A stretch of 64,000 bases of DNA from Chrysoporthe austroafricana. Taxonomy: Eukaryota > Ascomycota > Sordariomycetes > Diaporthales > Cryphonectriaceae. The notes below the pieces were generated by a model, which made no database searches, had not been told where the DNA came from, and saw only the letters and a list, made by a program, of their open reading frames with translations. The translations under genes were made by a program, and so were the position numbers. This document shows, piece after piece, positions 12,457 through 60,253 of this stretch (its first letter is position 1; each line of letters opens with the position of its first letter). Location: positions 4,996,703-5,060,702 of the forward strand of contig JYIP02000005.1 in assembly GCA_001051155.2 (NCBI GenBank), written 5' to 3'.

Positions 12457-12871
12457 TATTATGAACCAACATACAGAAGGACAAACCCCGACCTAGGGCC
12501 AAATCAAGAGAATGAAAACACATACCCCGCAAAGATTACGTAAGCCAGGGTTAGGGTTATCAGAGCTCAACCGGGCTTACCGGGGCTCGATGAGCAGCCA
12601 TAAGCCCCGATGAGCAGCGATGAGCCAAGGACTAAAAAAATATGGATATATAAGGCTGGAAGAACTATCGGCTAGATAATTAGATAGGACTTTCAGTCGT
12701 TAATCTAAGTATCAATTGGACCTTACCATTAATAGCCATATTGGCTTATGAACCTTGCGATATTCAGTGAATTCGTCCTGAAGCTCAAGATAGTACTTGG
12801 TATCGCTTTTGTTAGCATAAAACCCTTTGTCCCTACAGCCCATCTAAGGATCTGCTGCAGCGTTCATAATA
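12457..12871 (+). repeat. E1 5' LTR
   Basis: 415 bp, from TATTATGAAC to GTTCATAATA, a perfect terminal inverted match. The start is TA rather than TG because of a RIP-type change; the 3' LTR still ends in CA. It contains a TATA box. Its first ~200 bp differ from the E2 LTR, while the last ~200 bp are closely alike. Confidence 0.95.
12647..12654 (+). promoter_or_regulatory. TATA box in E1 LTR
   Basis: TATATAAG lies about 190 bp into the LTR and is kept in the 3' LTR at 19565-19572. Its position fits a U3/R boundary core promoter of an LTR element. Confidence 0.55.
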
Positions 12872-12930
12872 TTTTGATAACTTTTGTTCAAGATCGGTTC
12901 AGTATATACCCCTTGAGCAATATTCAGGAT
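12872..12930 (+). other. E1 primer-binding region
   Basis: The sequence just inside the LTR (TTTTGATAACTTTTG) matches TTTTAACGACTCTTG in E2. Allowing RIP changes, both could derive from a TGG-starting tRNA-binding site, but I cannot name the tRNA. Confidence 0.35.
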
Positions 12931-14935: not shown

Positions 14936-17900
14936 AGGATAATAGCCGATCAGGATTACGAAGTCCTTATATGCCATTACTAAAGGAAACGAGGAGCATA
15001 TCATTCTAGACGCGTATATCAAAAGACGATAATATAGCGCATTACTGGATAGCGGCGCACAAGGAAATTTCATCTCGCCCGAAATTATTAACAGGGAACG
15101 AATTCCCTGGACGCAAAAGAAGGACTTTTACAAGCTCAATACTGTAGAAGGAAAGTCGGTTATATATAACTTAAGTATAATTGATATAGAGACTAATTAT
15201 TTACCTATTTCGATCCAAAGCCTTACGATAAATATCATTTTTGATATTACAAATACGGCATAATATGAGTTGATTTTGGGAATACTTTGGCTTAAGGAAT
15301 ATAACCCTCGAATTGATTGGACTATTGGCCAGATTTTATGGGAATAAGCCGTACTTACCGAGAAAGTCGCGATTACTAGCAGAGGAAGAGACCTAGTTAC
15401 TGAGGATAGCATAAGTGAAATGCGCTCAAACAGGCTTACGAATACCTTTAGAGCAGAAAAGCAAGCCATAATACAGGGAAGGGTTACGACTACTTTGAAC
15501 TTCCAGACGAAAATTAAGGACGGACCAGGACTATAAACGACTATCGATTAACAGAAATTCGGTTAAGTACGGAATAGCGCAAGAAAATATGGATTGTAGA
15601 ACTATAAAGAAATATAGCTCTTATAGCACGAATACGCTAGAAGATAATTCGGCTCGGTACCCGACAGATATTCGAGACTACCAGAAATAGAAAAGCTCAA
15701 AAAATAAGAAGCTAGCGAGGCAAAATACGCATAGCGATATTTTATATTCTTACAGATCGCAAAAGACGAAGAAGAACTACTGCCAGACCTCAAAAACGTA
15801 TTACGGGAATATTACGAATTCAAAAAACTATAGCAAGGAAGATTCGATAACGGCTTACCCGAATATAATCCCTTTGACCATAAGATCTTACTGAAAGAAG
15901 GGACAAAGTTACAGAACTACCCTATCTATAAGCTCGATCAAGCAAAACTCAAAGCATTCAAGGAATATATCGACGAAAACCTCAAGAGAGGCTATATACG
16001 GAAATCACGATTACTCGCGGGATACCCAATCCTGTTCGTTCCAAAGAAAAACGGCAAATTACGACTTTGTATGGACTATCGGCAACTCAATAATATTACA
16101 ATTAAGAATCGCTATCCCCTGCCGTTGATAGGAGAAATGCGAGATCGTCTGATAGGAGCAAAATGGTTTACTATTTTGGACCTTAAAGAAGGATACTATC
16201 ATATCCGGATTAAGGAAGATAACATTTGGAAAACAGTATTCAGGACCCGTTACGGACATTTCGAATATATAATCTTACTTTTTGGATTAACTAATGCGCC
16301 CGCGTCCTTCCAAGAAATGATTAACGATATCTTTCGCGAATACCTGGATACTATTATTATCGTTTACCTTGACGATATCCTTATTTATTCCAAAAACCTC
16401 GTATTATACAAATAGCATATATGATAAGTATTCCGAATATTGCAAGATAACAAATTCCTCGTAGAACCAAGCAAATGCTAATTCTATTAACAGAAAATTG
16501 ATTATTTGGGCTATATTATTAAACCAGGACAGATTAGCATGCAGAAAGATAAGGTCCAAGCAGTAAAAAAATGGCCCATACCAGAAAAGACTAAGGAAGT
16601 TAGAGCATTCTTCGGCTATGCCAACTTCTATCGGCAATTCATTCGAGACTATAGCAAGATCGCACGATCACTTACGAATCTTACAAAAAAGGATTGCAAA
16701 TTTGAATGGATTTAAGAAACTCGAAAAGCATTCGACGAAATTAAGGAACGAGTTACGTTAGAACCCATACTTTGCAAAGCGGACCCAAACAAACCATTCG
16801 AAATCGAAACTGACGTATCAGATTACGCATTTGGCAGACAATTAGGCCAACGAGACAACCAGGGATATCTTAAGATAGTAAATAATTTCTCAAAAAAGTT
16901 GAACGGCCCGGAATTCAATTATAGCATTCCAGATAAAGAACTAATGGCAATCGTTAAAGCATTCGAAGAATAGCAATACTACCTAATCGGAACTAAATAC
17001 CAAATAATAGTATACTCAGACCACAAAAACCTAATAACGTTCATAATAATAAAAATCTTGAACAAACGACAAGTCAGATAAGCAGAATTCCTTTCGCAAT
17101 TCGACTTAAAAATCATATATTGCAAAGGATTAGAAAACGGCAAAGCAAACGCTTTTAGCAAACAAGCAGACTACTAGGATACGGAACCCAAAGAATTATA
17201 GAATATCTTCAGGCAAGACAAAAATAGCAACCTTATAAGCGAAGCAAGAGAACTTAATACGATTATCAGAATCGAGAATTAAAGAAGAAAACCTGAGAAT
17301 ATAACCCCCGAAAAATAAGACGAACATATTAAGACTATATATAGCGCATTAGCATATAGTTATCAAGGAATCAGAGCCACTTACGAAAGAATTAAGAGAT
17401 ACTGGAACTTATTAGGGCTCAGACGAAGAATCGAAAGAATCTTACGAAAGTGCGACAGCTGCAGGAAGAACAAGATTGAACATTATAAGCCCTATGGATT
17501 GCTCCAACTATTCCCGGTTCCGGAAATAGTTTGGCAATCTATTAGCTGGGATTTCATTACTAAGCTACTTCTTTTACGAGAACCCTTAACTAGAATGCAG
17601 TACGATAGCATTCTAGTAATGGTTTGCAGACTAAGCAAGTACGCTTACTTTCTACCATATAAGGAAAGCAGCATAGCAGAGGAACTCGCATATACGTTTT
17701 TCAGAACGGTTATAGCCAATTACGGCATGCCCAAAGAAATTATTTCCGATAGAGATAGAAAGTTCGTATTAAACTTCTGGACCTCACTTACGAAGCTACT
17801 CGGAATATAACAGAGAATGTCTATAGCATTCTATCTACAAATAGACGGACAAACGGAAAGAACTAACCAGATTATCAAGCAATATCTACGATATTACGTA

Positions 17901-18608
17901 AATTACGAGCAGGACAACTGGGTCAACTTCTTATCCCTAGCGCAATTTGCATACAATAGCGCAGATATAAGCACGATAAAGAAGTTGCTATTCTATGCAC
18001 TCTATAGCTATAACCCGACAGCCTATTACGACGAGATATCAGGAGCAAATGCAGAAGCTGCAGAAAGACGAATCAGAAGAATTAAGAAGGTTCAGAAAGA
18101 ATTCCAGAAAGAACTGAAGTTCGTATAAAAAAGAATAACGAAATATACCAACTCCAAAAGGATCGAAAGACCAATCCTACAGGAAAGGGACAAAGTTTAC
18201 CTTGTTCGACGGAAAGAATACATTAAAATAATAAGACCCTCTTACTTACTGGATTATAAGAAATTGGGACCATTCAAAATCCTAAGGAAAATCTCAAATG
18301 TCAATTTCGAACTTGCGCTACCCTATAGAATGAGAATCCATCCGGTATTCCATATCTCGTTTTTCGAACCAGTACTAAGAATAACCAAAACAGATAGAAG
18401 CATTCAGGTCGAGAGTAACGAGCCAGAATACGAAGTCGAACGAATCCTTAGATACTGCGGACCAGATTACGACCCCGAATACCTTATCAAATGGAAAGAT
18501 TACCCGGCAAATGAAAATTCGTAGGAACCCAAGTCCAACCTATAAAATGCATTTCGAGCATTAGCAGATTACCTGAATAAATAATAACGGAAAGGAATAA
18601 GCATATGA
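14911..18608 (+). pseudogene. pol: E1 pol relic (PR-RT-RH-IN-chromodomain)
   Basis: A single phase (multiples of 3) from the slippery site to TGA 18606-18608. Protease has LLDSGAQGNF near 15042. RT has the catalytic YLDD intact at 16365-16376. RNase H near 16800 reads TDVSDY (Ala to Val). Integrase has a zinc-finger remnant (CDSCRKNK), then Asp 17550, Asp 17748 and Glu 17856, giving the DX35E spacing typical of retroviral-type integrases. A chromodomain (EVERILRY...IKWKDY) lies at about 18430-18510. It is broken by many TAG/TAA codons. The chromodomain assigns E1 to the chromoviruses and would have directed integration to marked chromatin. There are no net frameshifts, so decay is by point mutation only. 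Confidence 0.93.
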
Positions 18609-18630: not shown

Positions 18631-19178
18631 TTAGGAAAACTGCTCGAATCCAGAATAAGAACCAGCCTTACCCAAAAAACCAGACTAGTCTACTACAGAA
18701 TTACTTATACTTACGGAATTCCAGTCAAAACCACTAAAAGAAGGATCCGTAACCGCAGCTGCAAACTTTTCGGAAACTACCGCCTATACTTCGACGGCTA
18801 TACGATTACGCTCTTCTTCCTCCAGACCTTGATTTACCAACTTTATCCCCTTTTCCTGGAAGAAGCGGCGCTATTTCTTTAGCCGTACAAGACGAGCCAA
18901 AGATTCAGTCATGCGGGACTAAAGCTCGAAAAGCTGCCTTTCCTCCTTAACCTTACGACTATCAATCCGGGATAATTTATCGGTAATTCGTAACACTATA
19001 ATAGGATTAGGAAAAAGAATGAGAAGAGCAAGAAGAAGGAAAAAGGGAGCCTACAAGACGATAACGGAACCCGTCCAGTATTGCAAGAACGTTCCCGTTT
19101 CGTACAATTAGAACAACTCTTAACCCTATTTACCATACGATACGACAAGCCCTTTTCAAGACAGAGCGAACAAGGCAT
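18631..19178 (-). pseudogene. E1 antisense gene: Zn2Cys6-like cluster plus coiled coil
   Basis: Read on the minus strand: ATG at 19178, exon 1 to 19055, a 59-bp putative intron 19054-18996 (GTAGGC donor, CTAAT then TATAG acceptor, pyrimidine-rich), exon 2 18995-18631 ending in TAA. The joined length is 489 nt (162 aa). Exon 1 starts MPCSLC and has spacing C-X2-C-X6-(Y)-X8-C-X2-C-X6-C, that of fungal Zn2Cys6 binuclear clusters, with the third Cys turned to Tyr (TGT to TAT). Exon 2 is a heptad-like, charged helical region with 3 in-frame TAGs, then an acidic/aromatic tail containing FDWNSV. It is convergent with pol, 22 bp apart. The function is unknown; a DNA-binding or regulatory role is inference. 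Confidence 0.75.
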
Positions 19179-19374
19179 AATTTCGTACTTTCGAGATTCG
19201 ATAAACGAAAATCGCTTAAGGCGGGCAAGACTCTTGGAAGAAAGAGTAGACAAGGAATTACGAGACTTGCCGACTTTGTAAGATATCTCAATAAGGAAGG
19301 TGCGATAAGAAACCTGCCGAACAAGGACATTCATAAAGCATTGTTAGGGATAATAACCGATAGAGGAGGGATGA

Positions 19375-19789
19375 TATTATGAACCAATATACAGAAAGAC
19401 AAATCCCGACTTAGGGCCAAATCAAGAGAATGAAAATACGTACCCCGCAAAGATTACGTAAGCCAGGGTTAGGGTTATCAGAGCTTAACCGGGCTTACCG
19501 GGGCTCGATAAGCAGCCATGAGCCCCGATGAGCAGCGATAAGCCAAGGACTAAAAAAACATGGATATATAAGGCTGGAAGAATTATCGGCTAGATAATTA
19601 GATAGGACTTTCAGTTGTCAATCTAAGTATTAATTGGACCCTACTATTGATAGCTATATTGGCTTATAAACCTTGCGATATTCAGTAAATTCGTCCTGAA
19701 GCTTAAGACAGTATTTGGCATCGCTCTTGTTAGCATAAAACCCCTTGTCCTTACAGCCCATCTAAGGATCTGCTGCAGCGTTCATAACA
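19375..19789 (+). repeat. E1 3' LTR
   Basis: 415 bp, same length as the 5' LTR, ending GTTCATAACA, so the ancestral CA end is kept. Differences from the 5' LTR are largely C/T and G/A, for example C at 12470 against T at 19388 in a CpA context. A purine tract (GAGGAGGGATGA) immediately upstream is the likely polypurine primer. Confidence 0.95.
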
Positions 19790-19794
19790 TAATG

Positions 19795-19918: not shown

Positions 19919-20071
19919 TATCGGCTTTATAAAGTAACGGCTTTTATAGGAATATCGGTCTTGTAAGATAACGGCTTCTATAAAAGTATCGGCTTTATAG
20001 AGTATCGGCTCCTGTAAGAATATCGGTTTTGTAAGATATCGGCTTCTATAAAAGTAGCATTCCTATAAAAG
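19919..20071 (+). repeat. 34-bp dimeric minisatellite in P leader
   Basis: Alternating 16-bp and 18-bp units beginning TATCGG or TAACGG and ending TATA(A)AG, GTAAGA and the like. Units start at 19919, 19935, 19953, 19969, 19987, 20003, 20021 and 20037, with a decayed ninth at 20055. This gives four 34-bp dimers, located in the leader between LTR and gag. Every unit keeps CGG. Confidence 0.85.
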
Positions 20072-58900: not shown

Positions 58901-59614
58901 TATATGAATTACGAATAGAATAACTGGATCGACTTCCTACCCCTAACGCAATTTGCATATAATAATGCAAATATAAGTACGATAAAAAAATTACCATTTT
59001 ACGCACTCTATAGCTATAACCCGATAGCCTATTACGACAAAATACCAGAAGCAAACGCAAAAGCTGTAGAAAGACGAGTTAGAAAGATCAAGAAAGTTCA
59101 AGAAGAATTCCAGAAAGAACTGAAGTTCGTACAAGAAAGAATAACGAAATATGCCAATTCCAAAAGGATTGAAAGACCAATCCTATAGGAAAAGGATAAA
59201 GTCTACCTTATTCGACGAAAAGAATATATCAAAATAACAAAACCCTCTCACTTACTGGATTATAAGAAATTGGGACTATTCAAAATCCTAAGGAAAATCT
59301 CAAATATCAATTTCAAATTCGCACTACCCTATAGAATGAGAATCCATCCGGTATTCCACATTTCGCTTCTCGAACCAGTACTAAGATCGACCAAAACAGA
59401 TAAAAGCATTCAGGTAGAAAGTAATAAGCCAAAATACGAAATCGAACGAATCCTCAAATACCGCGGACTAAATTACGACCCCGAATACTTCGTTAAATGG
59501 AAAAGCTACTCGGCAAGCGAGAACTTATAGGAACCCAAAAGCAACTTACGAAATGCGCCTCAAGCTTTAGCAGACTACCTGGACAAACAGCAGCGAAAAA
59601 AGGCTAGCCATTAA
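55917..59614 (+). pseudogene. pol: E2 pol relic (PR-RT-RH-IN-chromodomain)
   Basis: One phase to TAA 59612-59614. The protease active site near 56054 reads LLDSS (Gly to Ser). In RT the catalytic box at 57371-57382 reads YFDN, the second Asp turned to Asn. RNase H near 57815 reads IDVSDY. Integrase Asp 58556, Asp 58754 and Glu 58862 retain DX35E. Chromodomain at about 59440-59510 (EIERILKY...VKWKSY). Unlike E1, both protease and RT active sites are destroyed. There are no net frameshifts. Confidence 0.93.
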
Positions 59615-59644
59615 AAAAACGATCGATCAGAAAGGACCTACCAG

Positions 59645-60253
59645 TTAGCCGGAAAGATAATCAATACCAGAAAGACCGGCCATATTCCCAGATCCAGCTT
59701 CCAAACTAACGACGGACCAATCAATATCGGAACCAAACTGCTGCAAAGCAGCATTAAAATCGAAACTCTCAAGAAGAAAACCTTCGGGAATAAGAAATTC
59801 CGCAGCCCGACATTCCGTTTCGGCCTTGCGACGTTCCTTTTCGGCCTCCTCAGCTTCAATACGCTCAAAGTCTTCCAGATTAGACAAGCCATAACGGAAC
59901 GTACGCGCTATCCGCTCCCGCTATAGCCGCTTTTGTTTGCGCAAGCGTACTAACCGATCCTCAAGCTCTTCGATCTCGTCTTCCAGCTTCTGGTATTGCG
60001 CAAAGGCATGCAAGAGCTCCGCTGCATTAGTAGGCTCTAGGACGTCGCATTTCGACCGGCCGTACTGGACGTATCGAAAGTAGCAAGAAGAATCTGCCTC
60101 GAATACCGCGCAGGATTCAAAGCCCAGGCAATCACAATAAGAATAGGAACGCATTTCCACAGCGTTCGAAATAATACGGAACAGTAAGGCGGCGCGCTAT
60201 TTGTCCTTATCAGAATGAAGGGAAGATTTTGATTTTCGAACCTTGCTAGACAT
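59645..60253 (-). pseudogene. E2 antisense gene: cysteine cluster plus coiled coil
   Basis: Minus strand ATG 60253 to TAA 59645, 203 codons in one phase with two TAG. Residues 32-70 carry a cysteine pattern close to a Zn2Cys6 cluster (Y-X2-C-X7-C, then Y-X2-Y-X7-C), three Cys being Tyr. Residues about 80-110 are a strongly heptad-like acidic/basic helix (KLEDEIEELEDRLVRLRKQ). A second helix (RIEAEEAEKERRKAE) and an acidic tail with LQQFGSDIDW follow. It is convergent with pol, 30 bp apart. The architecture resembles small fungal zinc-cluster proteins with a dimerisation helix. No intron is needed here, unlike E1. Confidence 0.75.

Follow-up and report, generated by a model that had tools for sequence, protein, structure and literature searches.

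What is encoded on the minus strand between the end of pol and the 3' long terminal repeat (LTR) of a fungal retrotransposon, and what would its product do for the element? The question is raised by a 64,000-nucleotide stretch of the Chrysoporthe austroafricana genome (contig JYIP02000005.1; hereafter the window). The element is a Ty3/gypsy chromovirus, with both the RVT_1 and Chromo domains scoring over their Pfam cut-offs. The original prediction, which was made from the sequence alone, had pointed to a minus-strand frame at 19178..18631 with the arrangement C-X2-C-X6-Y-X8-C-X2-C-X6-C, and this frame is present. We read it, with a probability of roughly 0.6, as an accessory gene of a fungal chromovirus lineage that codes for a small DNA-binding regulator of the element.

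The minus-strand frame evolves as a spliced coding sequence

Copies of the gene were collected from the genome (48.15 Mb in 22 contigs). Forty of 77 candidates, the window copy included, were scored; all 40 were used, each aligned by its best BLAST piece. A 59-bp GT...AG segment (19054..18996) had been predicted to be an intron, and its removal does yield a joined frame of 489 nt. The copies agree with this. The exons show no indels in 491 columns, while the intron shows five distinct gap runs in 62 columns; these are all the gap runs within 19178-18629, and exon stretches of 124 and 364 nt are gap-free in every copy. The GT is retained in 33/40 copies and the AG in 32/40. Among the comparison regions, the end of pol has no gap runs in 261 columns, and each of the two stretches flanking the gene has four.

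Since repeat-induced point mutation (RIP) makes transitions, only transversions were used to look for selection, and no base was restored for this purpose. Of 12 transversion columns in the spliced frame, 10 are synonymous (P 9e-7), where a fraction of 0.169 is expected. In the other two antisense frames the synonymous columns number 0/12 and 1/12. The pol end served as a control: of its 13 transversion columns, 10 lie at the third codon position of the sense frame. The bias toward synonymous transversions therefore indicates that the frame is selected as a protein. Taken with the indels, it makes the frame almost certainly protein-coding and spliced.

Of 28 aligned relatives (see below), 7 carry an insert of 17-19 residues precisely where the intron lies. 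These inserts are likely unspliced intron translated by the open reading frame (ORF) caller and, if so, the intron site is common across species. The antisense intron would persist through retrotransposition, as the genomic RNA carries the sense strand, where such an intron would go unrecognized.

Another explanation is that the antisense transcript itself is functional, pairing with the genomic RNA into double-stranded RNA that feeds silencing or limits copy number. Such a role has been put forward for antisense ORFs generally, as far as the available part of one review tells (PMC7264820). However, selection acts here on the amino acid sequence and the exon frame, and the relatives resemble one another as proteins at 30-70% identity, which makes this explanation highly improbable.

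The gene accompanies the chromodomain across the genome

A chromodomain query taken from the window gave 493 candidate loci, 150 of which were scored. At 137 of the 150, the opposite strand carries a member of the antisense family at a distance of 361-804 nt downstream (median 475, between hit starts). One more locus has a same-strand member only, and 12 have none among the matches listed. On the 5' side, no member was found within 1.5 kb of any of the 150 loci among the matches listed. The family loci compared were a set of 150 and a set of 82 matching beyond the cysteine exon, with exon-1 matches and matches outside the listings left out; the comparison was also made from the gene side. An opposite-strand chromodomain, among the 150 listed, accompanies 60/150 and 77/82 of these, respectively. 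Five divergent loci were picked by hand, and four of them (L049-L052) have the same layout.

One locus, L048:2860-3519 (-), carries a family member with an open frame of 219 residues, within a stretch of 52.7% GC. None of five pol pieces has a match in the 4.8 kb examined, and no LTR-like repeat was reported around this gene. This member is possibly a host gene. An intact stand-alone member with no pol nearby is what favors the idea that the element captured a host transcription factor by chance and carries it as a useless passenger. Nevertheless, selection in the element copies and the constant place of the gene, both in the 137 loci and in four of the five divergent ones, leave very little room for a passenger.

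Relatives in other fungi share a six-cysteine pattern

The homologues that the original prediction called for were found in many fungi, with an open member at L048 as well. A profile search with eight copies returned eight proteins. The best of them was P0001 from Cytospora mali (173 aa, 64% identity to the first profile sequence), which is named a Zn(2)-C6 fungal-type domain-containing protein in UniRef. Two wider searches, each scoring only the roughly 8,000 candidates with the most shared words, returned 53 and 34 proteins that partly overlap. These come from metagenomes and from Cryphonectria, Metarhizium, Verticillium, Corynascus, Staphylotrichum, Canariomyces, Apiospora, Colletotrichum, Cordyceps, Conoideocrella, Sarocladium, Pyricularia, Gaeumannomyces, Microdochium, Beauveria and Thermothelomyces, all of which we take to be Sordariomycetes. 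No relative listed by the wider searches has a precomputed Pfam domain. One metagenome relative, P0003, is named "predicted anti-sigma-YlaC factor YlaD" at its source and looks misnamed.

The Zn2Cys6 pattern of fungal zinc-cluster proteins is C-X2-C-X6-C-X5-12-C-X2-C-X6-8-C. Six cysteines in this order are found in 49 of the 55 relatives checked: 24 of 28 that were picked for length and domain, from an initial pool that also numbered 55, and aligned, and 25 of 27 in a second check, which took 27 of 29 proteins and left out P0087 and P0088 as lacking the domain. In the first set, the loop spacing is 6/8-9/6 in 24/28. In the second, it is 6/8/6 in 5/27 and 7/9/7 in 20/27, and both proteins that miss the pattern do have six cysteines, their first loop being longer. 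The spacing differs between two subfamilies, 6/8/6 (with one 6/9/6 member) and 7/9/7. The first loop of the latter is one residue beyond the Zn2Cys6 pattern.

The window copy has five of the six cysteines. Its third cysteine position holds tyrosine, as in 38/40 copies overall, and cysteine is found there in the other 2/40 and in most relatives. Columns of the same dinucleotide context are often near saturation, with 11 of 43 comparable columns at least 90% A across the 40 copies, so RIP saturation alone may explain the tyrosine, though it may instead be a trait of the lineage.

A probable zinc-cluster-like fold

An AlphaFold2 model of relative P0016 has two short helices in the cysteine domain followed by a long helix at residues 82-164, in keeping with the helix that had been predicted after the cysteine cluster. 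When this one model was compared with the PDB using Foldseek, the matches were nearly all zinc-cluster proteins (dominated by Put3, Gal4, Ppr1, Pho7, Leu3, Hap1 and AlcR). Every one of these matches is weak. Sequence libraries gave less. Eight proteins had no NCBIfam row above cut-off, the viral fold library gave 13 matches with none at E up to 0.001, and sequence searches of the PDB gave 4 and 6 matches with no zinc-cluster protein by name. No basic leucine zipper (bZIP) model is among the Pfam rows listed for P0001, P0004, P0006-P0008, P0016 and ten more relatives; for the 28 relatives, P0016 included, that listing covers 25 of 75 families. Judging from the model and the cysteine order, a zinc-cluster fold is very probable.

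What the antisense protein may do

At about 200 residues, the protein would combine a Zn2Cys6-like domain with a long, probably dimerizing helix and a short tail of acidic and aromatic residues. Zinc-cluster proteins recognize CGG-type triplets and often do so as dimers, joined by the coil that follows the cluster, and acidic/aromatic tails can activate. By analogy, dimerization, DNA binding, activation or repression, and a target for the antisense protein are all plausible. The antisense promoter is likely on the 3' LTR side. The protein would be made from that side and would act in trans on transcription of the element, much as HBZ does in human T-cell leukemia virus type 1 (HTLV-1). On this analogy, the protein is probably a DNA-binding regulator; action on its own element may be part of its role, at somewhat less than even odds.

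Two results weigh against a regulator of the element. The first is that the Pfam Zn_clus cut-off of 21 bits is reached neither by the window ORF (10.8 bits) nor by the best relative (19.6 bits), although 21/28 relatives touch this model at E up to 10 (best E 0.001). The proposed Zn2Cys6-like motif stands as a cysteine pattern in the relatives but not as a Pfam assignment. The low score of the window ORF would also suit a chance open frame in which the cysteines and the helix are meaningless. Set against this are the exon/intron indel contrast, the six-cysteine relatives, the 137/150 chromodomain loci, the synonymous transversions and the inserts at the intron site. A chance frame is ruled out by the substitution and indel tests and by the homologues, and we give it next to no weight.

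The second result concerns the simplest control model, in which the element is controlled through CGG triplets in its own LTR. CGG/CCG triplets were counted in the 31 of 40 copies with a long enough LTR match. The count was 6.65 observed vs 6.46 expected, with 17/31 copies above expectation. There is no enrichment, and self-control by this route was rejected. A tandem array of 16-18-bp units with a CGG in each lies at 19919-20056 of the window, about 130 bp past the 3' LTR; it is outside the LTR and was not counted.

LTRs without an excess of CGG/CCG also fit a selected protein of another kind, one that serves the chromodomain integrase as a cofactor for chromatin or nucleic acids and assists nuclear entry or insertion-site choice. 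The constant company of the chromodomain speaks for such a cofactor, and a long helix joined to a basic cysteine domain would suit it too. On the other hand, the conserved DW tail and the zinc-cluster order form a layout like that of small transcription factors. We consider the cofactor unlikely, but it is the alternative to be taken most seriously, and we retain the DNA-binding regulator as our reading.

Comparison with known antisense genes

The gene brtn of Boty-like retrotransposons in Botrytis cinerea was reportedly treated by Zhao et al. 2011 (Virology 417:248). In the parts available of later accounts, brtn is an additional antisense gene of these elements (PMC7264820, PMC8365987, PMC4227169, PMC5987419). 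Compared by description only, it resembles the gene studied here as an extra antisense gene between pol and the 3' LTR of a fungal chromodomain Ty3/gypsy element. It differs in that those parts of the accounts mention no zinc cluster or intron. No Botrytis or Sclerotinia protein is among the matches listed in our three homologue searches.

The Zn2Cys6 proteins (PF00172; Gal4, Put3, Leu3 and Hap1) share the six-cysteine order and a long helix after the cluster, and would share the predicted fold. In contrast to them, the antisense family falls under the Pfam cut-off, has only about 200 residues, is borne by a retrotransposon and includes a 7/9/7 subfamily.

HBZ of HTLV-1 is the product of a spliced antisense gene, a bZIP protein that lowers expression from the 5' LTR, according to the part of the source available (PMC10186651). 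As described there, it is likewise antisense from the 3' LTR side, spliced and a regulator-type protein with a dimerizing helix, a role that is only predicted for the helix here. HBZ, however, comes from a retrovirus and is of the bZIP type, and we claim no sequence relation; the likeness would be a convergent device at most. In plants, the TRP28 ORFs of Retand (PMC11963269) and gene23 of Grande (PMC7264820) are, in the portions of the sources available, also antisense between pol and the 3' LTR with products predicted to be DNA-binding or nuclear. They have another domain and belong to plant elements, and Retand is not a chromovirus. The available part of a 2020 review states that no clear similarities had been described for antisense proteins except an SMC domain (PvRetro13) and a transposase-28 domain (Retand) (PMC7264820).

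Antisense accessory genes in LTR retrotransposons are therefore known, and what is new here is a recognizable layout of the DNA-binding type. A literature search by titles and abstract openings, which did not cover the original brtn description, found no description of a fungal retrotransposon with an antisense gene for a zinc-cluster protein, which leaves the absence of one unproven. We suggest more tentatively that the gene belongs to an undescribed family of spliced antisense zinc-cluster transcription factors, spread through fungal chromoviruses as two diverged subfamilies, a counterpart of HBZ controlling the element from the 3' LTR, with the L048 member perhaps a host gene. If this is true, fungal retroelements and HTLV-type retroviruses arrived independently at one solution, with a transcription factor encoded in reverse at the 3' end. 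With a readable protein layout, an intron site that is probably common to several species and well above 100 loci in a single genome, the function of such antisense genes could thus be tested through one small protein.

Layout and decay of the window copy

The features of the element and its antisense gene are collected in Table 1. The gene lies between the end of the pol ORF and the 3' LTR and overlaps neither.

Table 1. Chromovirus and antisense gene features in window coordinates
Feature	Position	Strand	Details
5' LTR aligned block	12457..12872	+	416 nt, 93.0% identity to 19375-19790, gapless
pol, reverse transcriptase piece	16071..16415	+	Pfam RVT_1 70.9 bits (cut-off 29.6)
pol, integrase region, two ORF pieces	17499..18128	+	17499-17810: rve 22.3 bits, under cut-off 32.6; 17817-18128: no Pfam match
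pol end with chromodomain	18264..18524	+	Pfam Chromo 28.0 bits (cut-off 25.1); SH3_Tf2-1 42.5 bits (cut-off 30)
3' LTR aligned block	19375..19790	+	Pairs with 12457-12872
Antisense accessory gene, probable full extent, decayed copy	18631..19286	-	Stop 18633-18631; upstream start from relatives
Exon 1	19055..19286	-	19178-19055 indel-free in 40 copies; originally predicted start 19178 lies inside
Cysteine domain	19083..19172	-	Five Cys and one Tyr in window copy; codon table of 40 copies
Intron	18996..19054	-	59 bp in window copy; 50-62 nt across 40 copies
Exon 2	18631..18995	-	Indel-free in 40 copies
Long helix, probable dimerizing coil, approximate limits	18766..18995	-	Alignment to helix 82-164 of P0016 model
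Acidic/aromatic tail motif, two DW pairs in relatives	18673..18729	-	P0016 D172 W173 almost unchanged across 28 relatives

The start is a point on which the original prediction needs revision. In 23 of the 28 aligned relatives the protein begins about 26 to 45 residues before MPCSFC, so that translation probably starts naturally at codon 19286-19284 rather than at 19178. This codon reads ATG in 6/40 copies, the window copy not among them. At 19178, the ATG is retained in 37/40 copies and could serve as a short start. The extension from 19286 to 19179 shows no synonymous bias of its own (2/7 transversion columns synonymous, P 0.45), and transversions do not support it as constrained coding sequence. 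Within it, the 57 bases before the ATG (19235-19179) have one transversion column in 40 copies and come after a pyrimidine-rich stretch that closes with AG. There may be another intron upstream here, or a constrained leader.

The window copy is dead. Its joined frame holds four in-frame stops, and the second W of the tail DW pairs is a stop codon. Decay is general, with a mean of 2.6 stops per copy and only 1/40 copies without an in-frame stop; none of the 40 has an open frame together with the long start codon and both of the splice sites.

A second chromovirus copy lies at 59270-60253 of the window, with a chromodomain ORF (59270-59530) beside an antisense gene on the minus strand (59645-60253). 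This gene belongs to the other subfamily, is intronless and has two in-frame stops.
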